A stretch of DNA of 20,789 bases, taken from NCBI GenBank assembly GCA_943704525.1, contig CALSCQ010000547.1:1-20789 (forward strand), written 5' to 3'. The stretch comes from Pigoraptor vietnamica (lineage: Eukaryota > Opisthokonta > Filasterea). Under the pieces are notes generated by a model. That model saw nothing but the letters and a program-made list of their open reading frames with translations, searched no databases and was not told where the DNA came from. Positions 54 through 20,789 of the stretch are shown in pieces (within the stretch, counting starts at the first letter, position 1; each line of letters begins with the position of its first letter). Position numbers and translations under genes: made by a program.

Positions 54-3000
54 GTGTGCAAACGAAAGGGCCAGCTGTACAAACAGGGAGGCAGCGTGAA
101 GGTGGGTCGCGAGCTTGTGTGGTGGCGCGTTTTGTGCCACTGACGAGTCCGCGTGTGCCCCGCGCAGAGTTGGAAGCGGCGGTGGTTTGCAATCAAGGAC
201 GACAAGCTGATATACTTCAAGAGCTTTGAGGTATACCCTTGTCGCGCCCTGCATGCAGCGGGTGTGCGCGCACTGACACGGACGGCGATGCAGGACAAGC
301 GCCCCATCGGCATCATCGACCTCCACATGTGCTCGGGCGTCGTAGAGGCCGAGGCCGAGGCGGGCGTCGCGAACTCGTTTGCGCTGGCGAGCCCATCGCG
401 GACGTTTCTCTTTTATGCCGACTCGCGCGCAGACATGCGCGGCTGGATTGACGCTATCGCCGAGTGCCTGCCGTCGACGCCCGGCGGAAAGACGCCGACG
501 CTCTTCAGCGACGACGACGAGCTGGACGACGACGCCGCAAGCACAAAGCGCTCTTCGGCGGCCTCGGTGAGCTCGTCCGCGGCCGCGTCCGCAACCGCGC
601 CCGCTCTTGCCGCCTCGCTCAAGTCGGAGGGGGCGGCTGCGATGGCGGCGAAACTCGAGCGTGCGGCGCCTGCTGAAGCCGAGCGCCCGCCGGAGGACAC
701 GTCGGTGCTGTCGCCCGAGGCCGAAGCCAACGCGGGTGAGCTGCGTGGCAGACTGTGGAAGTGGGGCGTGTACATATCCCGTGGGGCGATGCTAGCCCTT
801 GTCACGATGTACCTTTCGTAATTGTTGCTGCAATAGTCTTGCCTGCCGTTCGCGCTCATCGACAACTCCATTCCTTCACCACAGTCGCAACGCTCTTCCG
901 AGCAAATAGCTTTGCGTCCAAAATGATGAAGTTCTATGCCAAGTTTGTCGCCTCATCGTACCTCGTGAACACGCTCGCTGGCGTCATGGCCACGGTGCTT
1001 GCCGCGGACAGCATGGAGGTCGACCCCGCCAAGCTCAAGGAGGGCCAGTCGCTCGAGGCCAACCGCGCCACACTGCTGCGCGTCTGCAACGACTTTCTCT
1101 CGGCGATTGTGGGCGCGTGCGACATGGCGCCAGCGCAACTGCGTGAAATGTGCCACCACCTGAGCGTCGAAGTGCGGAAGCGCTTTCCCTCGAGCACAAC
1201 GAAAGCTGTCGGTGCGTCTATATGCCTCTCCTGTTACGTGTGATCGATGGGAAGCCACCGTTACTGATAACTGCCAGCACGGCTGGCGACAACGCGCGCG
1301 CCTTCCCACTCACTTGTTGCGCATCCACGCAGGCGGATTTCTCTTTCTACGGCTGTTTTGCCCGGCGATCGTGCTGCCCGAATACTTTGGACTGGTTGCG
1401 GCGGCGCAGCTCCCCTCCCCGAACGCGCGCCGCGCACTTATCCTTAGCACAAAGGTGCTCCAGAACCTCGCGAACGGCGTCGAGTATGGCTCCAAGGAGG
1501 CGTACATGGTACCCTTCAACGACTTTATCCACAGCAAGCGTGCGGTCGCCGACGCATACTTTGACGCGTTCGCGGCCGCGAGTGCCGGAGCCGCCGTGGA
1601 AGCCCCGTCGGCCAACATCAGCGCCGAACAAGTGCGCGAGGCCGTGGCAGTGGTGCACACGCGGCTCGCCGTGCTCCTGCTCGAGTTGATTGAGGACAGC
1701 CGGGAGTCGACGGAGGAGGGCCTTGTGCCGCTCATTGCGCGCATCAAGGAGACAATTAAGGGCGGGGCAGACGCGCCCGTCGAGTCGCTGCTGGCTGCCC
1801 TCGCCGCGGACGGCATGCGGATCGTGGCGGACCTGTGCGAATGCACGCCGATTACGGAGGCCGACGAGCTTGCGAAGGCGCTCGTGACGCTGTTCACGCG
1901 GGAGGGGCGCGTGCTGGCGCTGCTCAAGTGGGCCATTTCGCACGAGGTCGAGCAGTCGGCGGGCGCGAAGAAGGCGCGGTCGCTGCGGAAGCGCGGGTCG
2001 CTCGCGGACATTCTCAAGGGCCCCGCCACGAACAGCATGTCCGGACAGTCGCCGACGGCGGCCGCGAGGAAGCGCGGCTACTTCTACAAGCAGGGCGGCA
2101 CGGTCAAATCGTGGCGCCGGCGGTGGTTTGTGATCAACGCGCGCTTCTGCCGCCTCGAGTACTTCAAGGACGAGAAGAGCGCGGACAGCGGGGAGAACCT
2201 GGGGTCCGTCGACCTCGCGCTGTGCTCGTCGATTGCGGAGGGCGACGCGCGCACCGGCATCCCGCACAGCATCGAGCTGGTGACGCCGCAGCGCGTCTAC
2301 GAGGTGCGGGGAGCGCCCTTGGACTCTGCATATTGTTGTGCTCTTGCTTTTTATGTGGTGCGGTCTCTTGCGCTGAGCGTGGTTTAATGTGCGCTGTCCT
2401 CGCAGTTCAAGTACGACAGCGAGGCAGAGCGTAACGAGTGGCTCGCCGCTTTTCGGGCGGTGGCAGAGAAGACACCTCGGCGCACCATACGCCGCCACAA
2501 CACGACGAGTGCGGGCGGGGGGACGACGGCTACTGCGCCGGCAGAGGCCGAGGTGATCAAGGAGGGCTACCTCGCGAAGCAGGGCGGCCTCCATCGCGCG
2601 TGGAAGCGACGCTGGTTTGTGCTCACCAAGACGGAGTTGTCGTACTACATGACGGAAGACGACGCAGATGCGCTCGGCACCATTACGCTCAAGGAGTGCT
2701 CGTCGCTGTCTGTGGCGGAGAGCCGCCTGAACGTGCTGAACAGCTTTGAGCTGGCCACGGCCGGGCGCGCGTACTTTCTCTACGCGGAGAACCAGACGGA
2801 GATGCGCGATTGGATGACGGCGATCGCGACCCTCCTGCCGAAGGATGGGCGGGCGGACGAGCGCGACGGCCTCGTGAATCTGCGCTCGGAGAACCCCGTG
2901 CTGATGCAGGGGTGGCTGCGCAAGCAGGGCGGCCTGCACAAGGCGTGGCAGGACCGCTGGTTCGTGCTCAAGGGCGAGTACCTCTACTACTTCAAGAGCC

Positions 3001-4315
3001 CCGAGATACACGAGATGCAGGGCGCCATCCGTCTCGAGAACTGCTCGGTCGCGGAGGTTGCTCAGGCGGACGTCGGCCTCTGCTTTGCCATCAACACGCG
3101 ACGGCGGGTGTATTTCATGGGAGCGCGCAACAGGTGCGTTGTTTTCTCTTAGTTTGCACTGCCACTGGGACTGCCCCATTGTGCGTTGGGTAGGGCTTTG
3201 GGGCGGCGGCTGACTTCCATACGTGCGCTCAGGTACGACATGGATGCGTGGATCACGGCGATAGAGTCGCAGATGGTGTTCAACGGGGACGTCCCCACGC
3301 CAGAGGACCTCGCCGTGAGCGGCAACCGGTTCGGCAACGTCATGAACGCGCTGCGCCGACAGCCCAAGATGGTCGCGCCGGACGTGACGGAGGGCAGCGC
3401 CATCCGCGGCTACCTCATGAAGCGGTCGGGGTCGTCGCTGAGCTGGAAGTGCCGGTGGTTTGTGCTCAAGGACTCGTCGCTCTACTACTTCAAGCACTCG
3501 AAGGTGCGTCGCATGCTGCGCTCGTTTTGCAGGAAGGCGTGGCCGCTCACTTGCTGTTTTGGTCTGTGCAGGACACGACACTGCTTGGCACGCTGGCGGT
3601 GGACGAGGCCGAGCTGGAGGGCATGGAGGACGCCGAGTACGGCAACAAGGACATCTTCTACGAGAAGGTGCGGGGGATTGCGTCATCGCGTGTGCGCACA
3701 TGTGGTCCCTGCATCATTGTCCATTGCCTCCCCTTTGGCCTCTAACCCCGCGCGCCCCTCATCGTCGCAGGTCATGTATCTCATGGCATCGGACAAGTTC
3801 TACGCGGCCGATTTCCCGCCGTTTCTCGCGTTCAAGTCGGCCATTATCAACAAGTGCGGCTTTGCCATACACACCCGGAGGAAGGTCTACTACCTCGTCG
3901 CCCCCACGCGCGAAATGGCGGAGAACTGGATGCAGGCCGTGAACGTGGGTGGCCACTGTGTCGTGTTTTGCTCCGTCGTCGTGCTTCCCTGTGTCTGAAC
4001 CACATGTGCTGCCATTGTTTTTGCTGCAGGACGCGATCGAGAATGCCCAGCTGAACAGCGGAAGGGTGCGTGTCTGCAGTTGGCCTTGCGCGTCAGTCGC
4101 ACGTGCTTTTCTTTGGCTCAGCATGCGTTACTTTGTCCATCACGACCTAATTTAATTCCTTTGGCGTGCAGCACATGCGACGACCGTCGGACCAGGACGG
4201 CTCCATTGCGGACGCGTCGGACGTCGCCTCGATCGCGAGCAGCCAGGCCGCCATCGTGGACGTTCTAGACATGTACACGACGACCCCGCGGCCCGTGTCT
4301 CCGCGCCCGCGCTGA
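54..4315 (+). CDS. RasGAP protein with five PH domains (5' partial)
   Basis: Predicted GTPase-activating protein for Ras-type GTPases, recruited to membranes by PH domains. Exons: 54-101, 168-230, 294-735, 837-1211 (or 885-1211), 1333-2303, 2406-3133, 3233-3503, 3572-3667, 3771-3944, 4030-4065, 4172-4315. They give about 1115 residues ending in TGA. Order in the fragment: PH1 (about 4-97), an acidic then Ala/Ser-rich linker, RasGAP core (about 203-420), then PH2 (556-653), PH3 (683-779), PH4 (800-891), PH5 (931-1056) and a Ser/Pro-rich tail. The GAP core has TLFRANS, with the arginine finger at about 206, and FLFLRLFCPAIVLP, with the stabilising Arg at about 316. Both closely resemble neurofibromin. 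The PH domains share KQGG..W.RRWF.., a phosphoinositide-binding type signature. PH5 carries an insertion of about 45 residues encoded by exons 3572-3667 and 3771-3944. Helices normally in front of TLFR are found after the core (about 470-521). The 5' end is outside the window. Its Ras partner is unknown. Confidence 0.87.
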
Positions 4316-4633: not shown

Positions 4634-6816
4634 ATGGCGTACGCGCGCAAGCTGCAGCGACTGGGCATCGCCGATGCCACGTTGAGGCGTCTAGCTGCGC
4701 ACAAGATACACACGTGCAAGGTGTGACAGCCTCCGGTTCGAGGGCGTAGATGGAGGACTGCGCAGTGACACTTGGCGTGAATGGAGGTCTGCGGGATGAC
4801 ACACTGCTTTCGTGCCGCAGGACTTTCTCGCCGTGCCGTCGTTTGACCTGTTCCATGCACTTGAGCTCACGCGAGCCGACTTTGACGCACTCTACCGCCT
4901 TGTGTGTCACGCGGTGCTCCCGCCACTCACGACGGTGCGCAGTTTCGTTCCATGCATTGTCTACGTAGAGTGCATTAGGCCCGTACGTCTGACTGCAACA
5001 CTGCAGGCAAGCGACCACTGGAACGGCCAAAGCGTGCGATTCCTGGCGACCTCTCTGTCTCTCTTGGACGTCTGTCTCCACGGTGGCATCCCTGCGGGCA
5101 CGGTCACAGAGGTATGGCTGCGGTGTGTGTGTTTAGAGTGGCGCCCGCCGTAGCGCTCACGGTGACGTGTGGGTGCAGATTGTGGGGCCCTCGGGTTGCG
5201 GCAAGACGCAGCTCTCGCATTTGCTGGCCGTGCGCGCCACGCTGGCCCCCCTGCACGGCGGACTCGGCGGCGCCGTTGCGTTTGTCGATACGGAGTCGAC
5301 ATTCAGTCCCAAACGGTGTGTGCGCGCGCTTGTCTGTGGAGGCGCACACGATGGGCCGTGCCCAGGCGTATGGACACCCCTGTCTAATGGGCACGACGCA
5401 GGCTATGTGAGATTGCGCGCACGCGGTACCCCAGCGTGTTCGCCGACGACGCGTCGCTCGTTCCGCTTCTGAGTGCCATCCACGTCTGCAGCGCCTCGAC
5501 TTGCGCTGAGCTCATGACTCGGTGCGCTTGTGTACGATGCAGCCGTGGAGGAATCTTCGTTGCTCTACTCGTGCTTACGGACCCCACCCACCCTCACATG
5601 CGCACATGCCACCCACCCTCACATGCGCACGCGCACACTCTGCAAATCACATGCGCACACTCTGCAAATCACATGCGCACACGCACACACTCTGCAAATC
5701 ACATGCGCACACGCACACACTCTGCACATCACATGCGCACACGCACACACTCTGCACATCACATGCGCACACACTCTGCACATCACATGCGCACACACTC
5801 TGCACATCACATGCGCACACACTCTGCACATCACATGCGCACACACTCTGCACAGGTTGCAAGACCTCGAGACCCTCGTGATTCGCGAGGGCGTGCGTCT
5901 CATCGTCCTGGATTCGGTGGCAGCGCTCGTGCGGAGAGAGTTTGGGGCGTCGTCCGCCGCTGCACAGCGAACGGAAATGCTCTCGCGCCAGGCCGCCACT
6001 CTCAAGTGGGCACGCGGTGTTGTTTGTGTGCATCCGCGTTGATGGCTGCGTACGGCACATCGCTGACACACCAGCCCCGCAGGTACCTTGCCGAGTCCTT
6101 TTGTATTCCGGTGGGTGTGCAGCTGTAGTACAGCCAGATCACACAGCGCTCACACGCGGATGCGCAGGTGGTCGTCACAAACCAAATCACAACGCGCTTC
6201 GTCGAGAGAGGTGAGACAGAGAGAGTTGTCGGATCAGCTTAAATCGACTCCGCTGAGACAGAAACAAGGAGGGGGGGGGGGGGCTCTGGCTCTGTGCCCA
6301 CATATACGCCGATCTTCCAATTTGATCGATGACCTCGCTGCAACCCAGAGATGGACGTTGCTGACGACGCGCCGGACGGCGAATCCCCGCGCGAAACCGT
6401 GCTTGCGACCGAGGGCGAAGCGACGGCGGCGCTCGGAAATACGTGGGCGCACAGCGTCAACACGCGGCTCGCCGTCGACTACATTGACGCACGCACGCGC
6501 CGGTTGCGCGTCGCCAAATCACCCGTCGCTCGACCGGACGCCTTCGCGTATGTCATTGACGCCTCGGGACCGGTGCTCGTGGGCCGCGCAGACGCCGCGG
6601 ACAGCACAGGCGCACCTGTGGCCGCCGCGTGCGCACTCGGCGTTCGCTCGGATGTGGTGCATGGTGGGCGGAAGTGTTGGTCGATGTGTGCGTCGAGCGT
6701 TACTCGCCTGACACGTGCCAATGGCTGCAGACCACAACGCCGCGGACGCCCAGCACACTCTCGCGCTCCCTTTCGCCGCCGCCGAGGTCCAGCGGACGAG
6801 CCGGTTCCCGCCATAG
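4634..6816 (+). CDS. RAD51B: DNA repair protein RAD51B (RAD51 paralogue)
   Basis: RecA/RAD51-family ATPase. In known systems RAD51B pairs with RAD51C in the BCDX2 complex, which helps load RAD51 in homologous recombination. Exons: 4634-4720, 4821-4934, 5007-5111, 5179-5315, 5402-5521, 5856-6005, 6083-6110, 6168-6210, 6349-6663, 6731-6816, giving 394 residues. Visible features: an N-terminal helix-hairpin-helix-like region (KLQRLGIADATLRRLAAHKI), Walker A GPSGCGKTQ (about 105-113), VDTESTFSPKR, Walker B LIVLDS (about 203-208), PVVVTNQITT, and the RAD51B-typical ALGNTWAHSVNTRL followed by AKSP. The start is the first ATG of this frame and aligns with the family's N-terminus. Intron 5 (5522-5855) is swollen by a minisatellite. 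Two exons are very short (28 and 43 bases). The last splice (donor 6664, acceptor 6730) is less certain. Without it the frame would run to 6899, beyond the AATAAA at 6833. The gene converges on the RNF168-like gene. Confidence 0.92.
5621..5855 (+). repeat. Minisatellite in RAD51B intron 5, ending at the splice acceptor
   Basis: Nine head-to-tail units each begin ACATGCGCAC. Their lengths are 28, 22, 30, 30, 30, 24, 24, 24 and 23 bases. Most end TGCAAATC or TGCACATC. The last ends TGCACAG and supplies the true acceptor at 5854-5855. Units contain no AG dinucleotide. Looser C/A-rich copies continue upstream to about 5581. The array makes this intron 334 bases, against 57-138 for the gene's other introns. 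Confidence 0.9.
6271..6283 (+). repeat. G13 homopolymer in a RAD51B intron
   Basis: A run of thirteen G lies in the intron 6211-6348 of RAD51B. It is probably variable in length and prone to sequencing error. It has no effect on the reading frame because it is intronic. Confidence 0.8.
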
Positions 6817-6926: not shown

Positions 6927-7847
6927 TCAGCCCTTCAGCCCGCGCGCAAGCTTCTCGTCCGCACTGAGTTGTGCGCGCCGTGTGCGCTCCTCCCGAACCA
7001 CCTCCGCGTCGAACTCGGCCTGCAGTCGCATCGCAAGCGCCTCGTCACTCAGCGCGCACTCTGCTCCAGAATCGACGCTGACGTTACGGTCCCCCGCGGC
7101 CACCGACGCACTCCCTTTGGCATCGCCGGGGCGCAGCCATCGCGTAATAGGCACAACGTGCGGCGTTGGCGGCGCCTGCTTTCGTCCGGCGACCGACCCG
7201 CGCGGCTGCTCGTGGGCGCGTGCAGCGGGTCGCACGTCCCCCGACGACAGCCGCCGCGCGAGCGCCTCGTCCGCCGCCAGCGACGCCTGCGAGTGTGCCT
7301 GCGACTGTCCCGTGGCAGCCTCGCGCTCCTCCTTCAGCAAGGCAGCGATGGCCTCTTCACTCGCGCGCTCTTCAGCCTCGCGCCGTGCACGCTCGGCCGC
7401 CTCTTCCGCCGCCGCCTGCTCCAGCAGCTCACGTCCGACCTCGCCATCAAGCGATGGACGCGCCGCGGGGGCCTCCACAAGACCCTTCTCCTGCAGCGCC
7501 GAGAGGTCAACCGTTTCGCCACGGAGGCGAGCGGCGACGAGGTCGGGGAACGCGCGGCGCATCTCGTCCCAGAGGGCGCTGTCCACGGGCAGTTCCTTGT
7601 GGAGGCGCGCGAAGGACAGAGCGCGCGTGCGGCACTGCGAGCAGCCATGCACGCCCGCTTCAATGGACGCGCGCAGGCACTCGCGGCAGAGCACGTGCCG
7701 GCAGGGGAGCGCGACGGGCTCGTTGAACAGCTCGAGGCACACGGCGCAGATGCAGTCGGCGGCACTCAGAGGGGCCATCCCCGCGCGCCACGCGTCCAGT
7801 GCGCCGCGGGGGGCCTGCGGGGCGGTGGCGCGGCGCTTGCGCGACAT
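6927..7847 (-). CDS. RNF168-like RING-finger E3 ubiquitin ligase
   Basis: Intronless, 306 residues. The N-terminus carries a C3HC4 RING finger: Cys34, Cys37, Cys49, His51, Cys54, Cys57, Cys69, Cys72. It is followed by a segment that fits the RNF168/RNF169 pattern (ALWDEMRRAFPD). A long charged helix (about 137-176) ends in ERASEEAIAALLKEE, closely resembling the ubiquitin-binding UMI/MIU1 part of RNF168 (ASEEYIQRLL). Three more ubiquitin-interaction-like motifs follow: ADEALARRL (about 192-200), SDEALAMRLQAEFD (about 267-280) and ADEKLARGL near the C-terminus. RNF168 ubiquitinates histone H2A at double-strand breaks, and a nuclear role here is inferred. The basic MSRKRR start could help nuclear entry. 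The gene converges with RAD51B and diverges from COQ6. The family call could be wrong in favour of another RING protein with UIM-like motifs. Confidence 0.85.
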   Translation of the reverse strand: MSRKRRATAPQAPRGALDAWRAGMAPLSAADCICAVCLELFNEPVALPCRHVLCRECLRASIEAGVHGCSQCRTRALSFARLHKELPVDSALWDEMRRAFPDLVAARLRGETVDLSALQEKGLVEAPAARPSLDGEVGRELLEQAAAEEAAERARREAEERASEEAIAALLKEEREAATGQSQAHSQASLAADEALARRLSSGDVRPAARAHEQPRGSVAGRKQAPPTPHVVPITRWLRPGDAKGSASVAAGDRNVSVDSGAECALSDEALAMRLQAEFDAEVVREERTRRAQLSADEKLARGLKG

Positions 7848-8069
7848 GGCGGGCGGAGGGTCGTCCCCTGGCAGACACGGCGTGCTGGTGCATCGCTTTG
7901 ATGAAACCCGCCAGTCTCACGTGAGATGCGTGATGTCATGCATTGTTGAAACAACGGCGCAGCCCAGAATCTAAACAAAACGAACGCCATCGGAGCCGCA
8001 GGGCTTGCACACCGCCCTCGCGTGCAGTGTCAGTGCGGCGTGTGCGTGTGTGTGCATGCCCAATGCGCT
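7848..8069. promoter_or_regulatory. Bidirectional promoter of the RNF168-like gene and COQ6
   Basis: Only 222 bases separate the two divergent start codons, so the genes must share control DNA. A perfect 12-base palindrome TCTCACGTGAGA at 7915-7926 contains the E-box CACGTG, bound in other eukaryotes by bHLH-zipper factors of the USF/MYC/TFE type. A short A-rich stretch (CTAAACAAAACG, about 7972-7983) lies nearer COQ6. No TATA box was seen. The coding ATG of COQ6 at 8070 is preceded in frame by another ATG at 8022, which would remove the typical mitochondrial start. Confidence 0.55.
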
Positions 8070-10470
8070 ATGTTGCCTCTAATCGCCCGATGTGGCAGCG
8101 CCGCTGTGCGTGGGTGTGCCCCCAAGACGCCTGCCATCCTGGCCGCGAGGGCGCTTTCGGTGGAGGCGGGCGGCGATGTGCACGCGCGTCTCGAGGACTT
8201 CTACGATGTGGTCATAGTGGGCAGCGGAATGGTCGGCGGGGCGGCTGCGTGCGCGCTTGGTGAGGCGACGGGGGATGGTGCGAACGACGCGCGTACTTTG
8301 GCTACATGCGCTTACGAACACGCACGCAGGTGGCAATGCGACACTCTCGGAACACAGAATTCTTCTGCTTGAGGGCGGACCGCGACGGCCCTATGCGCCG
8401 GTGCGCGGCAAGTACTCGAACCGCGTGTCTGCCGTGTCGCTTGCGAACGCAACTTTCCTGCGAGGTGCGTGGGCCGTCACATGTGATCATGATGCTGTGC
8501 GAGTGCTTACGTGGCTGCCCCAGACTGCGGCGCGTGGGGTGAGATCGAGGCTGCGGGTCGCTGCCACCCGTTTGAGAACATGAGGGTTGGTGTCGGCGAT
8601 CCGCGTTCCGCACAAAACGCAGCGCACGCGCGCGCACATGCACGTCTCCGCACACTTGCCGCCCCTCTGCGGCATGCGACTTACGCATTGCACGTCTGCA
8701 GGTATGGGACGGCGTGAGCGACGCGGCCGTTGCATTCGACGCCGCCGCCGACACACCGGGCGACCCGATGGGCTATCTCGTGGAGAACGACGCCATCCAG
8801 GCGGCGACCATGGCGCGCGCAGGCAGCCTCCCAAACGTCACGGTGGCGTACGACGCGCCCGTGTCGGCCGTGTCGCTGCCCCGCCCGGCGCACGGCGGCC
8901 ATCAGGTGCTTGCAGAGCGCTGTATGTTAGTGGCACATGAGAACGAGGGCTGATGTCACCCTGACGCAGTTTGAGGACGAGTGGGCCGAAGTGACCGTGG
9001 GAGGACGGCGGGTGCAGACGCGGCTGTTGGTGAGTGGTGTTTGCTGTACGTGGGCAAAGCTCGTGCGCACCGTGCGCCCGCTGACGGCGCCCCCTAATTC
9101 CATATTCGACCAGATTGCGGCCGACGGACCGAACTCGTTTGTGCGGCGGAGCACCGACATCGAGTCGCTCGCGTGGGATTACGACCAGGCGGCCGTGGTT
9201 GCGACGCTCGCGGTGTCCCTGCCCGCGAACGCGCGCAACGGCACCGCGTGGCAGCGCTTCCTTCCGACGGGCCCCATCGCACTACTCCCCGTGAGTGATG
9301 TACATCGTCCTCAGCCAGCGTGCAAGCGACAGCCGCTGACGCACATGCGCGTGCAATCAAACACTTTGTCTCGAGTGCCATTGACCATCGACGCATTTTT
9401 CAGCTGTCCGACACGGTGTGCTCGCTGGTTTGGTCAACGTCGCGCACGGCGGCAAAGTCTCTTCTTGCTCTCTCCGACGCCGCCTTCGCCGACGAGGTGC
9501 AGCGCGCATTCTCGTCGCCCGCAGACACAGTGCTCGGCGTGCGTCCTGGCGTTCTTTCGGGCGCTTTGGGGGTGCTTGGGGAAGTGGCCGGCAATCTCGC
9601 GCAGGTCGCCGGCAGCACGCTGTTTCAGTCGGTAGCGCGCAGCGCGCTTTCGGCTGTCGGCATTGCTCAGCGCCCGTCGCAGGCGCAGTACGAGGATGAG
9701 CTTCATCCCCGCCAACAGATCCCGCCGATTGTGTCGTGCGAAGCGAAGAGCAGAGCGTCGTTTCCGCTCTCTTTCAGCCACGCAACGCACTACGTGCGGC
9801 ACCGGTTAGCACTGATCGGGTGAGTGGTGCGTGTTGCCTCTGCTAGTGTCTCGTCTTGCTGAATGACATGGACGTGCGTGCGACTGCCGCAGGGACGCTG
9901 CGCACCGCGTGCACCCACTCGCTGGCCAGGGCGTCAACCTTGGCTTTGGCGATGCGCGGGAAATTGCCGCAAATGTCGCCGAGAGTGTGGCCGAGGGACA
10001 GGACATTGGTGCGTCCTCACTGTCTCAACGATACTAGACTCACGTGCCTGTTGGCCGACTCAATTCTCTATCATTGTGCTCACACTTGCCTGTTCGACAG
10101 GCGCGCTCCACCGGCTGTTTCGGTACGAAACGGCGCGTCAGCGCGCGAATCTGCCCATCATGGCCGCCACAGACGCCCTCAAGCGCCTCTTCTCGACCGA
10201 CTTCCCTCCAACTGTCTTGGCGCGCTCGTTTGGGTTCAGTCTCACAAACGCAGCGGACCCGGTCAAGGTACGTGCACGGCCTTCTCAATGCTTCGTCGTG
10301 CGACTCTCAGCTCTCGTGCATCCCACTTCCCTCCCAAATGCCGTGCGTGCGACCACATTCCTCAGACAGCCGCCCATGCATTGCCAGCAACTGAACTCAA
10401 GGCAAACCGTACATTCTGACACGCTCAATCGCAGCGCAAGATCGTGCGGCACGCCATGTTTGGCGAGTGA
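8070..10470 (+). CDS. COQ6: Ubiquinone biosynthesis monooxygenase COQ6, mitochondrial
   Basis: FAD-dependent monooxygenase that hydroxylates the C5 position of the benzoquinone ring in coenzyme Q synthesis, on the matrix face of the inner mitochondrial membrane. Exons: 8070-8259, 8330-8464, 8524-8585, 8702-8905, 8970-9029, 9114-9290, 9404-9819, 9893-10008, 10101-10267, 10435-10470, giving 520 residues. Residues 1-40 are rich in Arg/Ala, as in a mitochondrial presequence. Then come [20 protein letters not shown] (ADP-binding GxGxxG at 51-56), [35 protein letters not shown] and the second FAD motif [16 protein letters not shown] (about 415-430), then [12 protein letters not shown]. The exon 9404-9819 carries a longer loop than animal COQ6, mostly Ala/Gly/Val-rich. 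The donor at 8906 was chosen because it alone keeps phase with the acceptor at 8969. A better-looking GTATGT at 8922 would give a stop. The gene converges on CCT4 with 65 bases between stops. Confidence 0.95.
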
Positions 10471-10497
10471 CGTTCGCCGTGGCAACATCAATACAAA

Positions 10498-10513
10498 GCG
10501 GCGCCGGCGCCGC
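10498..10513. terminator. 16-base perfect GC palindrome between COQ6 and CCT4
   Basis: GCGGCGCCGGCGCCGC is its own reverse complement. It lies in the 65-base gap between two convergent stop codons. It could form a compact hairpin in either transcript. A role in ending transcription is inference only. Confidence 0.4.
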
Positions 10514-10535
10514 CAGAACCAGAACATGTTCGTCC

Positions 10536-10811
10536 TTAGCGAGTTCCAACCTGCAACACACAGAGTCATAGTCAGCAAGGACAACAAAACATGGCACGTC
10601 GTGCACGCCAACGCACTGTCGCAGCCACAACGCGTCGCAGAAAAACTCACAATGTCGTCAATCTTGAGGATCGACCGCACCGTCTCGGACGCGAGCGTGA
10701 TTGCGCTGGTGCACACGAGGAGCGGCTGGATCACATTCTCCTCCAGGATGTTCGTGATCGTGCCCTGCGGACCCATCCGCGTTGGCGTCAAACAACGCAG
10801 CCACAACAATG

Positions 10812-10887
<76 letters not shown>

Positions 10888-13035
10888 GAAGGCAAAGAGA
10901 AAGGAGAAGAGATGAACGGACCAAGTCGCGGCACCCTGGCCAACGCACCTTCCGCACGTTGATCCCAGCCATCTTCTCGCCCTGCGCGTGCTTGTTGCGC
11001 AGCTCCGTCACAACGCCAATCGGATTGAGACCGGCGTTCTCGGCGAGCGTGTACGGCACCACCTCGAGCGCCTCGGCAAACGCGCGCACGCAGTAGGCCT
11101 CCATGCCGCCGAGCGTCTGCGCGTACTGGCCGAGCTCCACGGCGACTTGCGTCTCAGGGGCGCCACCACCGGCAATCAGAGCCCTGCCAATTCGACAGTG
11201 CGAGAGGTGAGCCAAGGAAAAGTGACGCAACGAAATGGACGCAAGAGGGAACGTGAATGCAAGGGAAACGGGCGAAAGGTGCACGCGGTCAAAACGCACC
11301 GCTTCTTGACGAGGCACCGGATGACGCAGAGTGCGTCGTGGATCGAGCGGTGGGCCTCCTCGAGAACGAGCTTGTTCGACCCGCGCACGACAATCGAGAC
11401 CGTGTGGGCGCCGGGGGGAACGCCCGTGACCTTGACAATCTTGGCCTCGCCGGCCGTCACCTCCTCCACGAGCTCCGCAGTGCCGAGCTTGTCGGGGGTG
11501 AAGTGGTCCGCCGAAGCAATCGGGCGGCAGCCGAGCGTCTGCGAAGAGGGAGCAATGTCAGCACTGAATACAAGAGGGCAAGAGAGAGGATGCCCTGACT
11601 GCGGCGGCCTTGGAAATCCGCCGGGCGAAACAACATCGGCATCCCTACGGCCACGCACTCTCTCCGAGGCAATGGCATGCATGCACCGGCCACCCTCCCA
11701 TCCATTCAACGCACCTTGCAGATGAATTCGACCTCGTCGCGCTCAATCTCGGTGATGACCATGATCTTCATCTTGGCAAGGAAGTGGAGCGCGAGGTCGT
11801 TGACGGCGTCGCGCAGGATCGACTTTTGCACGAGGAGCACGTTGCACCCGGCCTTCTTGATCTTCTTCACCAGCTCGAGAATGTACTGGCGCTCCTCGCG
11901 GAGCACGCGGTCCATCTGAGAGTAGTCGCTCACAATCACAGTGTTCTCCATCTGCGACAGAGTGTGCGACAGGGAGTGTCAGACTCCCAGCCCACAGCCC
12001 GCCACGGCGCCATTCCACGGCAACACGCAGACGTTCCCAACCCCACATCACCTATCATAAAACGCCTTGCCGCAACGACCATCTCCACACACTCCCCTCC
12101 TCACTCGGAAGCACCGCCCGATTGCGACTAATCATCCCAACCATCACATCAGCATCCCCTCCCGAATCTCGCACATCCCGCACGGTGATGTCACCCACAT
12201 CTGTCTTCGGCGCCGAGAGGCAGAACTGGATGAGGCCGATCTTGGCCTTCTCCTGGCGCGTCACGCCACCAGCGACGTGCGCAACCCTCTGTGTAAAGAC
12301 GAGACCGTCCACGAGCTCGCAGTCCTCGATGGTGCCGCCGAGCTTCTTCACCACGCGAATGTCGCGGAGGTCGACGTTGGTCGCCGACTTGGGGTCAATG
12401 ACGTGGAGCACCGCATCGACCGCAATCGGCGCAAGCAGGTTCGAATACTGGGACACGACCTGCAGATCCATGAAAGATTAAGCATCGCGACATCCCCATG
12501 GTACCACACTACAACCGAACACGAGAACGACTGGTTCTTCCCCAACCTTCGAGTTAAGCGACGTCGTGGCGCTCTTGAGCAGCGAATCGCGATCGCTGAG
12601 CTCAACGGGGAGCGACATGCGCGTAAGGATCTCCACGGCCTTATCGACGGCGAGCTGGAAGGACTCCGAGATGGTCGTCGGGTGGATGCCCTTGTCGAGC
12701 AGCTTCTGGGCAGCGCTCAAGAGGGCGCCGCAAATCACAACGACCGACGTCGTGCCGTCGCCGGCCTCGACGTCCTGCGCCTTGGACAGCTCGACGAGCA
12801 TCTTCGCGGCGGGGTGCAAGACCTGCATCTGCTTCAGAATGGTCGCGCCGTCGTTTGTGATGGTGACCTCCCCGTTGGGGGCCTGGATCATCTTGTCCAT
12901 TCCCTTGGGGCCGAGGCTGGTGCGGATGGCATCCGCAACGCCCTTCGCCGCCGTAATGTTGCTCGCGCGCACCTCATCGGGCTTCTCGCGATCCTTGAAG
13001 GTCGCCTTGCTCACAGGCGCTCCACCCTCGACCAT
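10536..13035 (-). CDS. CCT4: T-complex protein 1 subunit delta (CCT4)
   Basis: Subunit of the cytosolic TRiC/CCT chaperonin, an ATP-driven double ring that folds actin, tubulin and other proteins. Exons in coding order: 13035-12547, 12459-12199, 11951-11715, 11538-11300, 11183-10949, 10764-10651, 10550-10536, giving 529 residues. Near-identical to known CCT4 over long stretches: [31 protein letters not shown], the nucleotide-binding [52 protein letters not shown] and [13 protein letters not shown]. The delta-specific ending KIDDIVGTR is completed only by a 15-base last exon (GTT GGA ACT CGC TAA). The start is the ATG at 13035 (context AAAATGG). The frame stays open to a GTG at 13050 but has no earlier ATG. 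One intron contains a long CA/TG microsatellite. No frameshift or missing catalytic residue was seen. Confidence 0.97.
10813..10887. repeat. (AC)n microsatellite in a CCT4 intron
   Basis: About 75 bases of AC dinucleotide repeat (TG on the CCT4 sense strand), interrupted once by AT at 10859-10860. It lies in the CCT4 intron 10765-10948, so it does not touch coding sequence. Confidence 0.95.
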
Positions 13036-14156
13036 TTTCGCAAAGGGCACGAAGCCACCGACTCAAACAAAGAGAAACGGCAAAAAACAAAGTCACAGAC
13101 TCAGAGACAAAATCCGCCTGCGAAAGAGGGATGCGCCAGTTGAGCAAGGGTGCAGACACAAAAAAGCCAGGCAGTGGTGCCCTGTCACAAAGAAAATCGG
13201 CGCCGGTTTCGACTCATCGCAAAATAACACAGAAGACAGGACAGCGCATCTGCGCCCTGAATACTCCCATCGTCACTCACTCACCCGCACACAAGGCAAC
13301 AAGAACGCGGATGCGGAAAGCACAGAGACGGGATGTTGTAGTGCGCGCGGGGGGTGCGATGAAGGCTCGGATGGTCCGATGGTGGGGGATGAAGCACAGA
13401 GAGAGAGAGATGCAACAGAGGCAAAAGCGAACAGTACTGCGCAAATTCCAGCTGAGCGACTGGTGTGATATCGTAAGGCACAAGACGGACCATACAAATT
13501 ATATAGCAGACTAAAGAGCTAGTGTTAATTTGAATTTGTATCGTCTGAGTCAAAATTTCACCAAAATGCGCAACAAGAATGTGACGAAAAGTAGAAAATT
13601 CCAAGACTTCAAGACATATACAGACGTCATTGTGACGTGTATTGATGTGTCGCTGTTTTCAAGATGCGGACCACATCGATACGCACAACGAGCATCTACA
13701 CTCGATAAAAGAGCTGTGACTCTCAAACACTGTGTTCCCCTTTATTATTCGTGCACGAGACTTCTCAAGGGTTACGAAGGACGTTGCATGACGACACCGC
13801 CGCCGAAGCAGCTTGCCCTACACATCACTCTGACGACTGGAATCAAAGCATGAAGCCACAAACAGTTTCGTGCAATGAGCGTTGCTTATCATCGTTGACA
13901 GCAACATATCAGACAGCGTAATAATGGCTTAGTGCTTGTGCATGGAAAGTAAAAAGATGCGTCTCAGTGGATCATGTTGGGCCACAGAATGAGTCATCCG
14001 GGGTGGGTGTGAAGTGGACACACACAGGGTGTCACACCGAGTGAGGAGATTGCATCTACAACAGTATTCGTACCCCGTTGTTTACCCACCAGAGTCGGAG
14101 ACGACGTGAAGGCGCTGGTCATGCACGCCCACTAGCCTGTTCTCGGAAGACACAAT
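13036..14156. other. Divergent intergenic region with AT-rich core
   Basis: These 1121 bases separate the divergent starts of CCT4 and the 14157 gene and must hold both promoters. The outer parts are GC-rich. About 13480-13980 is clearly richer in A and T than anywhere else in the window. Within it I see an imperfect hairpin (13484-13545), an inverted pair of CRE-like half sites, ACGTCA/TGACGT, at 13624-13638, and further right a 7-base inverted repeat (14006-14012 with 14032-14038). Open frames here, such as 13530-13853 on the plus strand, lack protein-like composition or recognisable motifs. I found no tRNA, 5S or spliceosomal RNA signature. Confidence 0.55.
13484..13545. repeat. Imperfect inverted repeat in the AT-rich island
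   Basis: ATACAAATT (13492-13500) pairs with AATTTGTAT (13533-13541). Flanking GACG (13484-13487) pairs with CGTC (13542-13545) if four bases are bulged. This gives a 13-base-pair hairpin with a 32-base loop. Function unknown. Confidence 0.6.
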
Positions 14157-15509: not shown

Positions 15510-18500
15510 TCAGTGCTCGTCAATGTCGTCCAGGCCCAACCCCAGGCTGTGGTTGTCGTTGTCCTGGTCGAGGTCGGCCATTTCGGTGTTCTGTCCAAGC
15601 GTCTGCAAGCAAAAAAGTGCGCAAATCAACGAACGCCTCAGAGATGCAAGTTGAGTAGGGAGACGAGGGAGGCTCAGCACAAGGGACACATAATGCAGAC
15701 TACGCAGCGCACCTTGTAGTATTTGTATCGGAGGACGCGGTGCTTGTACCAGAAGAAACCAGCGACGCCGACGAGGGCGAGGAAGCAAACACCCGCCACG
15801 ACAATGGCGGGAATGGGCACGGTGGCACCTGAGGGAGGCGGCACTGCGCGTGACGAGTTCAGCACCAGCACGTAGCGTCAGCCATCAAGAGTTCAACCTG
15901 CGAATTAAACGTGCGCATGGAAACTTACACTCCAACACCGCGACCACGATGCCGTAGGTTCGCTGCGTCCCGTCCTCCGCCGTCAGCCGCAGCGGGATCG
16001 TGTTGTTGCCGCCATGCACCGAGAACACAGCAGCAACACCACCGGAGAGCACTCGGCCCAACACGTCGATGCGCGTGGTGGGATCGCGCGCCCCTACGAG
16101 GACAGTAACTTGCGCAGTACCCGCAGCAAGTGGGCCGATGAAGACGACGCCGGCGTCGCTGTTCGATCCCGCGACAAACGTAGAGTCGAATGAGGACGCA
16201 TTCACAACCACTGGGCCCACGGTGAGGCTCGAAATCGTGTCTGGGGCGTCAAGAGGATATGGTGTCAACAACAACAGCGGACACCACAGGCCCGAGGACC
16301 TACACTGCGCCTGAACACTCACTGTCGCATGATACGGATCCTTCGGCGCCTGGCTTCGTCCCGCCCCAGCACGCTCGCACGGCGGAATAGAGGCGCTGTC
16401 GGCGACCGTCGGTGCATGCTCCGAGTTCTGGGCGGAAGTCCACGGTCGTGCACAAGGCTGTGGGACAAATTGAAGATGCATTAATTGCCGGCGCAATCGA
16501 TGCATGCACACACGCACATAATATAAACGGCACAGGTGGACACTCACGACAGGCGTACATCGACCGCCAGACAAAGTGGTATCGGCAGCTTCGCGGCGGG
16601 TGTTCTGCCGTGTTGTTCTCTATCGGCATGGGCATCCCTGCGAGAGACAGTGCGTCAGACGGAGAAAACCGAAGTAGCGGAAGCACAACCGGACTCACCT
16701 ACGCCAGCATCGAGGTCGCACAGGAATGTGACATTCGTCTCACGCGGCTGCGGCACATTTCCGTAGGAGCTAGCGCAGCCCTTGTCGCCGTTTGACAGGC
16801 GCATGAGCAGCCCACTGCGGTCCGTGATCTGGTCCACGGGCGCGTGCGAGTGTCCAGAGCCCGTCGAAAAACCGTTGTCCAGAATGTCGGCGTCGTCGGT
16901 GAGCGGCAGCAGGGACAGCACCGACCCCACGTCATACGCAAAGCCCTGGTTGAGCGACTCCTGGCACGCAAACGTCATGACCGGCTCGCCTTGCGCGTTG
17001 AAACAGCTCGTGTTCGAGTGGCGGTGCGTGCAGACGTTGATCCAGAAGCGCCGGTCGCCCTCGGTGCCGGCAAAGTGCATGTTGACGGGATCGGACAAGG
17101 GGCTCAGATCGTACACGACGCCCGGCGAGACAATCAGGCGGCAGTCGGTTGCGCAGTCCGTGCGGTTCGCAAGCGCCCACGTCCCGGGCCCACACCTGCA
17201 GCGTGAAAAACGACCATACACTTAGGCAATGCGTGTGAGGCGGTCGACAGGGGCACCTAGCAACCCACTTGAGGCACTCGGCACTGCCCTCCTTGCGCGA
17301 GAAGTAGCCATCGGCGCATGGTTCGCACTTTGCGCTCGCCTTGCCCGACCACGTGCCCGCAGGACACGGCGTGCACACCTCGGAGCCTTCCGGCGCAAAC
17401 GTGCCCGCGGGACACTCGGTGCAGCTGACGCCGCCCGTCTCCTCCATGCCGGTGACGTTGAGTCCGAAGATGCGCGCCTTCAGAGTCACGTGGCATGCGC
17501 ACGTCAGAACGTGATGGGGATGTCGACCAACAACCTCAGTTGCGCGTCAATGCAACGCTGCGATACAAGAGCACAGGCGCCATCCCACCTCGTAGGTCTC
17601 CTTGCGCGTGTTGTCCGCCTGGTGCATCTGGAACACGAGCATGTGGTTGTCGGGGAGGAGGTCCAGCGAGAAGCGGCGCGGCCTGTTCGGGTGGATGGGA
17701 TCGCCTTGCAGCGCAATCTCCGTGAAGTCGGTCGAGTTGATGTCCACAAATCGGAAGCTGCATGCCTGCTCAAGGCAAGGGAGAGCACGCGCAGTGAGAA
17801 TTCGCCGCTCAATGAGAACACGTGGAAACGCAGCACCCACGTCCTTGCCGGCCGACCCGCAGTGCAGCGTGTAGTCAAAGCTGACGGAACCGCCGTGAGG
17901 CAGCGACGCAGTGAAGTAGAGGGTCGAGTCAAACGACCCAAAGTAGATCCCAGAGCTGCGCAGATTCGAACGCGGATGTTGGCCTACAAACCCTTCACGC
18001 AAAAACTGCCCTCAAAATCAACGGAACGGGCAAGCATGCACGCACCTGGCATAAGCGCCCATCGGCGTCCATCCCGAGGCCGATCCCGGGCAATCGCCAG
18101 CGCAGAAGGCGTGGAAGAGCAACGAGGGCTTTTGCTCCCACCGCGTAATAAACAGGCCGTGGTCGGTCGACGTGCCCGCGCGGCACGTTGCGCACGAGCG
18201 AGCGTGCGGGTCCGTGTTGTACTTGCCAGGTGGACAGAATTTGCACGTGGGATCAACGGTCGCGTTCGAAACGTCGAGGTATTGCCCAAGCTCGCACGCG
18301 CAGGGGAGGTTCTCGTCATCGATGGTCAGCTGCGGCAGTGGATAGTTGCGATCGTCGCAGAGAATGCGAGGGCTCTCGGGAGGCTTGATCGCACTGAGGG
18401 AGACTGAGACGTGAGAAGGGGCCTTAAAAAAATGGCCACCACACGGTTGCGTACCTGTAGTACCGAGACCGCACAGGGTTACCGGCGCCCAGCGAGGCCT

Positions 18501-20789
18501 TGCAATCCGTATAAAACAGCGCATAATCGTCCGCGGTGCACTCGCGCATGGGCTCGCAGCTGCAGAGCAAACAAATCAGCGATTTGACACGCGCACTGGA
18601 GCTCTACAAACATCGAGAAACGCAGCCCACGTTTTCGACCCGGGGGCGGCAAACGTTCCAAGGGCACACGGCTTGCACTGCGTCGAGCCGTAATCGCTTG
18701 TCGCAGTGAACCAGTCGCACTTTTGGCACGAGCTCGAGTGATTCGTGTTCGTGTACGTCCCAGGAAGGCAGGCCGCGCAGCTGTGAAATGGCACGTGAGC
18801 CACATTGTAGTGCCCCATTTCGCCCCGCACATGGTATCCTAAATCATAGAAGTGTGCCCATCGACTCCACTACCCCGCACAGGACAGACAGACCCCCACC
18901 TGCCCTCCGTGGCATACTGCGTGCCAATAAACTCAATACGGCGCACAACGACCATGTCGGAACCGCCCGACTGCGTTTCGTCCTTGATGTACTGCCACTT
19001 GAACGTGTGTGGGCCGGGGTTCAGCCTGCAAAGTCTCACATCGGTCAGTGCGCAGATTGCGTGCAAATAGACTTAGGGACGAGCTACACGTACATATACT
19101 TGAACGTCTTGGCGTCAGAAGACACGAACGGGACGACGTCCACTTCGTCGACCTTGAACACAAAGCCGTCGCACTTGAGGTTCTGAGGGCACCGCTCGGC
19201 ATCGACAGAAAATTCGAACGCAACCTACGAGGTGTCTTCGCGTCAGCGCGACAAGGACAAAGAGAAATTGCAGGCTCCGACAAATAGTAAGTGCGTTTGC
19301 GTCTGACAAGCAATTGGGCGTGCTTGCGTCCTTGCATAAACGACCGAGAAGACGCACACAGCAAAGAGAAATTTTCGGCCGCGCACCATGTTCTTCCTGC
19401 CGGGCAGCACGAAATGGGCTGTCGTGACGAGCGTGGACACAATATTGTGCTCCACGAAATTGTCACCCGAATAGAGGCCGGTGCCATCCTCCGTCGGCTT
19501 CCACCTGAAAGGGCACAGCATGAACGCGTCACCCCACGCAATTCCAACAGTACGATGCCGCCTCTCAACAACATTAGCCATTTACTACGGACGCGAACAT
19601 CAGGTCGACTCGATCTCACCACGCGCGTCCATTTGCTCACCACACGGACGACAGCGCACAAATTCACACGCAGAGCATCACAACAGGCACATCGAGCCCA
19701 CGCACCCGCTGCAAGGGGCAACCTGCCGGGGGTCCTTCTGCTCGCAGATGGTGAAGAAGCCCGCCGGGAGTGTATCAAAGGCCGTGTAGGCGAGGCCGGG
19801 ACCCGGCGAGTAAGTGCCCGCCGTGCAGTCGCTGCACGTGGTGGACGCGAACGGAAGGTACTCGCCGCCGTCGCACGTGGTGTTGCACGGGAGGTTTGTC
19901 ACCTGCGAGTGAACAAGGGGCGAACACGTCGGGAAAAAGCCTCTCTGACAAAGGGAAGCAGACAACGCGGACGAGAACAACACCCACCGGCAGCGGGTGC
20001 TTGAAGGAAGAAGGATGGAGCGGGTCGCACGTGCCGGCAAGGTAGTACACAGCGGTGCGATTGTTGACAGCCTGCACAAAAATGAGGGTTACGCCAGAGG
20101 TGCCATTTGCGAAGACGAGCTAGCACGGGGGACCCACCTCATTGCACGGCAAGTACATTCCGACGTAGTCAGAGGACACGCACGGACGCAGACCACCTTC
20201 ATGAGAGAACAGAATGCATGAGAAACGGACGGTGAACACTGACGCGACGACGGCGCACGCACGCACCTGGCTGCACTGGCCCACGGACAGGGCAGGCGGC
20301 CGATGTGATCCACTCAATAGTGAGATAGCATCCGTCAAACGACTCGGCCACAGTCGGAGGGGCGTCCTGTCGAAAGGGGAATTGCGCATCAGAATTATTT
20401 CGCGAACTGACGACAGGGATGCACGCAAAACTTCGCCAGCGGTGTGCTCACTCTACACAGTGAGCAGAATACAGCGTTCGCGGTCCAACGCACGCAACGC
20501 ACGCGGCATAGATTCGCACACAATGCACCTTGTTGCCATCGCAGAGGAACTTGATCTCCGTGAAGCGATAGCGCAGCGCGTCGCACTTCTCGGGCGTCTG
20601 GTAGATCACGGTGAGGACGGTCGCTGGAGGAACAGCGGCACGTGAGAATGATACAGCAACACCTATAACGCCTCATGCACTGCAGTGTGCGCGCATGGGC
20701 ACGTGCGTCGACGTCCTAATGACAGCAACACACTTCCGTAGTTCGACTCCCCTCCCCCGCTCCGCCCCAAAGCCAATTCCTCCCCCCCC
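15510..20789 (-). CDS. ELAPOR: ELAPOR (KIAA1324/EIG121)-like type I membrane receptor (5' partial)
   Basis: Cys-rich lumenal receptor. Animal ELAPOR1/2 act in the Golgi-endolysosomal system, secretory granules and autophagy. Exons in coding order: tentative (20789)-20734, then 20623-20529, 20366-20267, 20196-20138, 20071-19988, 19902-19706, 19504-19387, 19224-19100, 19025-18900, 18780-18631, 18559-18455, 18393-18046, 17955-17841, 17765-17589, 17477-17269, 17195-16699, 16637-16548, 16457-16323, 16240-15929, 15843-15713, 15602-15510. About 1088 residues without the tentative exon. An N-terminal MRH-type end (DGCYLTIEWITSAACP) comes first. The ELAPOR body follows: FDTLPAGF, CAACLPGTYTNTNHSSSCQKC, CPPGKYN, CPAGTFAPEGSEVCTPCPAG, CGPGTWA. 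A second MRH domain (17195-16548) leads to FVWRSMYACPLCTTVDF. A beta-sandwich exon (16240-15929), a membrane span (about 15820-15746) and a tail follow. The tail begins LRYKYYKTL, as in animal ELAPOR, contains a possible YxxPhi signal YKTL, and ends in an acidic stretch. Confidence 0.92.

Follow-up and report, generated by a model that had tools for sequence, protein, structure and literature searches.

The window, i.e., the whole stretch of DNA that was analysed (20,789 nt), opens on its plus strand with a gene for which eleven exons were inferred between positions 54 and 4315, and whose 5′ end lies outside of the window. The exons (54–101, 168–230, 294–735, 885–1211, 1333–2303, 2406–3133, 3233–3503, 3572–3667, 3771–3944, 4030–4065 and 4172–4315) were delineated by GT/AG sites, agreement of phase and an open frame running to a stop. 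When spliced, it has 1,099 residues in a frame that is uninterrupted up to the stop codon at 4313–4315.

Several other features are found in the remainder of the window. At 5640–5880, a repeat with HMRTHSAH-like units in several frames lies beside a gene of the RAD51 type (PF08423, E = 1.5e-9 for 5137–5469). A RING-finger protein (zf-RING_UBOX, E = 2.6e-8) is encoded on the minus strand at 6930–7916. The plus strand at 8150–9900 displays an oxygenase-like gene with a FAD-binding motif seen by eye, which we take to be perhaps of the COQ6 type; Pfam gave no match in 8931–9632, the sole piece of this gene that was scanned. On the minus strand, 10285–13062 represent a CCT/TCP-1 chaperonin subunit (Cpn60_TCP1, E = 2e-55 in the single piece scanned, 12481–13062), and a TG/CA microsatellite is present at approximately 10810–10890 in this gene region. 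Also on the minus strand, at 16658–20088, are pieces of what appears to be a receptor-like protein rich in cysteine, with an Ephrin_rec_like match (E = 5.9e-6) at 18579–18869 and a sub-threshold mannose-6-phosphate-receptor repeat at 16658–17221; Pfam showed no match in this region at 19681–20088.

The translated aa sequence of the first gene shows, in order, a PH domain (PH1), a low-complexity linker, a RasGAP core, a segment of displaced helices and the PH domains PH2 to PH5. PH1 (60–476, with boundaries set by the analyst on a PF00169 match) is encoded by exons 54–101 and 168–230 and the start of exon 294–735, and the N-terminus of the protein lies 5′ of it, outside of the window. PH2 to PH5, placed by Pfam on the splice model, extend across several exons at 2070–4041. 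The PH family (PF00169) is found by Pfam in five stretches of the model, with E = 1.7e-94 over the whole protein. The RasGAP family (PF00616) is found once, with E = 4.4e-28 and 99.0 bits against a curated cut-off of 28.3, which places the protein in this family; the best stretch, aa 181–341, falls on profile positions 12–207 of 207. When the model was scanned with Pfam at E values up to 10, the matches were PH-type families, RasGAP and, in a PH region, a single GAP1-M match below threshold; a CRAL/TRIO domain was not among them. The gene product is probably a membrane-targeted Ras GTPase-activating protein.

The first half of the RasGAP core (885–1211) opens at an exon boundary, two residues ahead of the motif TLFRANS (890–910; aa 187–193 of the spliced model), in which the codon of the finger arginine is at 899–901. 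An intron of 121 bases in phase 1 (1212–1332) is situated inside the core, and the join across it, KAVG/GFLFLRLFCPAI, aligns with NF1 and RASA1. The second half (1333–1586, within exon 1333–2303) carries FLRLFCPAI, LQNLAN, KEAYM and PFNDFI, and the match to a profile in native order stops at aa 378. The motifs that mark RasGAP domains are the arginine finger in [TI]xFR, the FLR helix and the Q..xAN helix. TLFRANS, FLRLFCPAI and LQNLAN align with their counterparts in NF1, RASA1 and SynGAP, and the core thus has the motifs of a RasGAP. When the core is aligned with NF1, RASA1, RASA3 (a provisional sequence) and SynGAP, the invariant columns comprise the arginine of the finger, the FLR triplet and more A, P, K, Q and E positions. 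In PDB searches the core matches NF1 (E = 3.6e-33), RASA1 (1.1e-30) and SynGAP (2.9e-18), and IQGAP matches are weaker; the respective pairwise identities are 77/189 (40.7%), 69/190 (36.3%) and 55/189 (29.1%).

Positions 1617–1757 (aa 389–435) are assigned to putative C-terminal GAPex helices by their position and by a weak alignment to the permuted profile described below. This stretch had no significant match of its own in a profile search, and its helix limits, taken from low-confidence models, are approximate. AlphaFold models of two contiguous exon pieces (243 and 132 residues, single sequence) had a mean pLDDT of 42.0 and 46.9 and display a helical tendency only.

In NF1, RASA1 and SynGAP, helices are found before the finger. 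The usual place of these N-terminal GAP helices is here taken by an Ala/Ser/Glu-rich, low-complexity linker (477–735, aa 99–184) that has no Pfam match. A preliminary description of this DNA had noted that TLFRANS is preceded by such a linker devoid of these helices, and the profiles bear this out; where the N-terminal-helix profiles pick up the linker at all, its score is negative, and degenerate helices between PH1 and the core were thus rejected. The same description had pointed to a missed exon between 736 and 884 as a place where the usual helices might still be encoded. The intron at 736–884 (149 bases, phase 1) could code for 49 residues at most, and a six-frame profile scan did not reveal a GAP-helix exon in it; a missed exon with the usual helices was rejected within the window.

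The six-frame scan covered 477 pieces of at least 20 residues. With a three-sequence profile, made of the N-terminal stretches of NF1, RASA1 and SynGAP (68, 72 and 67 residues ahead of the finger motif), the displaced segment alone stands out (E = 4.3e-5, 17.4 bits), and the next piece has 2.1 bits. A six-sequence profile, half of whose sequences are provisional, agrees (E = 1.6e-4; next piece 2.9 bits). No second copy of the N-terminal helices was detected among the 477 pieces of the window. Thus the helices expected before the finger have no upstream copy in the window and are present downstream.

This displaced N-terminal RasGAP segment is located at 1779–1958 (aa 443–502). The strong match starts at 1815 and, as aa 455–502, corresponds to NF1 1222–1268, whereas 1779–1814 (aa 443–454) are assigned by position alone, have no match of their own and could be GAPex. 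The displaced helices share one open frame and one exon (1333–2303) with the second half of the core and the putative C-terminal helices. A match to the N-terminal helices beyond the end of the core had been reported in the preliminary description, and it is clearly recovered here. An ungapped comparison of aa 455–502 with NF1 gives 18 identities in 48 positions, and the runner-up of 1,052 offsets in the protein gives 10. The hydrophobic pattern agrees with that of NF1 in 40 of the 48 positions, which was equalled in 1 of 100,000 shuffles; when alanine is not counted as hydrophobic, the agreement is 37/48, equalled in 18 of 100,000. With the three-sequence profile, aa 446–515 alone score 22.7 bits and the best domain in the whole protein 15.6, and shuffles of aa 446–515 reach a maximum of 8.9 bits (n = 2,000, of which 1,940 scored). 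With the six-sequence profile, aa 440–545 score 19.1 bits, or 13.6 within the whole protein, with a shuffle maximum of 7.2 (n = 2,000, of which 1,706 scored).

A plain phmmer search of the displaced stretch against PDB has a best E of only 0.13, and seven of its eight matches are NF1 chains, with the top match being the NF1 segment that a permutation predicts. RASA1 and SynGAP are absent from these PDB matches, and the unrelated 9dm3 appears with an E of 1. Pfam gave no match in the displaced stretch. The domain sequences used were compared with PDB: those of NF1 and RASA1 are identical to the chains, and that of SynGAP differs at 3 of 314 residues. The NF1 letters quoted in the preliminary description are also correct when compared with the PDB chain. 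The displaced part is, by sequence comparison, demonstrably homologous to the N-terminal helices of RasGAPs.

Over the 48 residues compared, which were picked as the matching part so that the choice flatters the identities, the displaced helices reach an identity of 37.5% with NF1, close to the 40.7% of the core, and this conservation points to a kept function of the displaced helices. The identities to RASA1 (8/35) and SynGAP (11/48), 22.9% each, also flattered by that choice, are below the 36.3% and 29.1% of the core. For reference, the NF1/SynGAP pair has 13/64 (20.3%) in the N-terminal helices and 57/195 (29.2%) in the core, and the NF1/RASA1 pair has 32.8% in both.

Downstream of the displaced helices is a basic linker (1959–2069), where the profile match ends before the finger columns. 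No remains of a second GAP core were detected behind these helices in a profile search. The sequence SLRKRGSLADI resembles TLFRGNSLASKI by eye, but a reading of it as part of a second core was rejected because the profile match ends ahead of this stretch. RKRGSLAD, in the same linker, has by eye the appearance of a basophilic kinase site.

A permuted profile, in which the N-terminal part was moved behind the C-terminus, matches the protein as one domain (aa 187–500, model positions 1–326 of 332). On aa 186–515 it scores 194.4 bits, and versions with a shuffled tail score at most 183.2 (n = 2,000). However, the native-order profile totals as much on the same residues, 194.6 bits, from two separate hits in the wrong order, and over the whole protein the native-order profile has 191.5 bits and the permuted profile 188.8. 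Thus the scores do not show one fold. NF1, RASA1 and SynGAP align with each other in native order, in single stretches that include the N-terminal helices. The sequence comparisons establish for the gene model that the order of the segments is reversed and that the conserved motifs are present; both parts are homologous to one domain and each is found once in the window, as in a circular permutation.

As a rationale for folding, the preliminary description had noted that both ends of the domain pack in the same extra subdomain. According to PMC7437355, residues on both flanks of GAPc together make up GAPex, and the GAPex core involves L1208 and L1211 on the N-terminal side and L1490, Q1494 and G1498 on the C-terminal side. 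Since N- and C-terminal positions are both part of the GAPex core described there, the old termini probably lie close together, which a permutation requires. PMC8580823 has the first GRD helix spanning L1196–M1215. The rationale given in the preliminary description needs correction. The NF1 match of the 6ob2 construct runs from approximately 1209 to 1463 and encloses NF1 1222–1268, which puts the displaced helices within the minimal catalytic (GAPc) construct rather than in GAPex alone. We take 6ob2 to be the GAPc construct mentioned in PMC7437355. As judged from the alignment, the displaced part is mainly the first helices of the catalytic portion. A core lacking them would probably be catalytically incomplete, and it is plausible for this reason that they return in cis.

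The favoured reading of the sequence data, with a probability of approximately 0.6, is that the RasGAP domain is circularly permuted and functional. The preliminary description had offered either a permuted GAP domain or the remnant of a tandem one. The permuted order is supported, with no other copy in the window, a permuted profile that matches as one domain and similar identities to NF1 in both parts, and the remnant is less likely. In a permuted domain, the chain would enter at the arginine-finger loop and pass first along the catalytic helices and then along the putative C-terminal GAPex helices, from which a short link of approximately seven residues (KGGADAP, aa 436–442, the limits being approximate) would lead to the normally-first helices. 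The domain would be completed by the displaced helices folding back into the position that they normally occupy. The old termini would have been joined and a new start opened just ahead of the finger, and the permutation probably originated by a tandem duplication followed by loss at both ends. The PH domains would hold the protein at membrane lipids, and the arginine finger would be inserted into a Ras-type GTPase and speed GTP hydrolysis. Of the two sides of the finger loop, just one would be connected to the helical body, with the other hanging on the linker to PH1, and it may be speculated that PH1 gains influence on catalysis by way of this linker. We tentatively suggest a circularly permuted RasGAP that occurs naturally and is active, and that has its new start directly at the arginine-finger loop; a flexible linker would tie the finger to a PH domain, where otherwise two helices would hold it between them, such that membrane engagement of PH1 possibly affects finger placement, or in which the displaced helices swap between two molecules.

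Other explanations should also be considered. With the 5′ end of the gene outside the window, an intact set of N-terminal helices might be present upstream; PH1 and the linker would then be an insertion into the GAP domain, and the helices found downstream would represent the rest of a second copy. A duplication of a helices–PH unit would agree with the identity of PH1, which among the five PH domains of the model is highest to PH2 (44.0%), and with a tree of these domains in which PH1 and PH2 are set apart from the others with a support of 0.914. However the alignment score ranks PH1 nearer to PH3 (201) than to PH2 (192), and the unit duplication thus gains little support. Two observations argue against a tandem remnant: the similarity to NF1 is as high in the displaced helices as in the core, and a second core leaves no trace behind these helices. 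We consider such a remnant unlikely, and less likely than a permutation.

A degenerate GAP is a further alternative, in which the first helices were lost from the core, leaving it inactive or a mere binding module, and the downstream helices have a role elsewhere. The equivalent of NF1 1222–1268 is indeed absent ahead of the core, and PMC12871552 describes IQGAPs as containing inactive RasGAP domains. But the finger arginine and the other invariant columns are retained, and so are the helices, with the hydrophobic pattern of NF1, and loss of the GAP function in this way appears quite improbable. The least probable of these explanations, and one that would be a surprise, is that amphipathic helices resemble each other by chance or that the gene model or the assembly is in error. 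The modest E of the plain phmmer search would be consistent with chance, and the order is read from genomic sequence. However the shuffle, offset and six-frame controls speak against chance, the best PDB match is exactly the NF1 segment expected from a permutation, and the decisive order is contained in a single open exon whose flanking splice phases are consistent.

If the permuted domain folds and works, it would be a naturally occurring circular permutant of the RasGAP fold, cut beside the catalytic finger. The finger loop would then need no anchor on its N-terminal side, and the protein would test which helices a minimal catalytic domain requires. The RasGAP match of Pfam starts with model position 12 on aa 181, so that the model has its start near the finger and hardly covers the helices before it. 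Thus PF00616 membership stands and the protein would be annotated as an ordinary RasGAP. Similar permuted cases could be overlooked in annotation, and could be searched for. A literature search showed no permuted RasGAP among the matches listed, as judged by titles and the start of abstracts and with subscription papers mostly outside its scope. No relatives were found in viral, prokaryote and phage sequence collections, as expected for a eukaryotic protein, and this says nothing on protists.

Among known systems, the NF1 GAP-related domain is the best PDB match for both the core and the displaced helices (77/189 and 18/48 identical residues), but its helices are before the core and those described here are after it. 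NF1 has a Sec14-PH module and HEAT/ARM repeats, according to PMC8580823, whereas the gene model has tandem PH domains. The core is also similar to that of p120GAP/RASA1 (69/190 identical, with the same finger and FLR motifs). RASA1 is anchored by SH2 (PMC7437355), in contrast to the tandem PH domains of the gene model. The segment order in RASA1 is the native one, unlike that found here. RASAL is a RasGAP protein with a PH membrane anchor. RasGAPs of the SynGAP/RASAL type differ from the gene model in the number and placement of PH domains, and SynGAP differs also in having the native helix order. The likeness to SynGAP is in the presence of a RasGAP domain beside a PH membrane anchor, as described in PMC7437355. 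The circularly permuted GTPase YqeH (PMC2848588) displays the same type of rearrangement in a protein of the GTPase cycle; however the fold is unrelated, and it is the GTPase that is permuted in YqeH, whereas here it would be the GAP.
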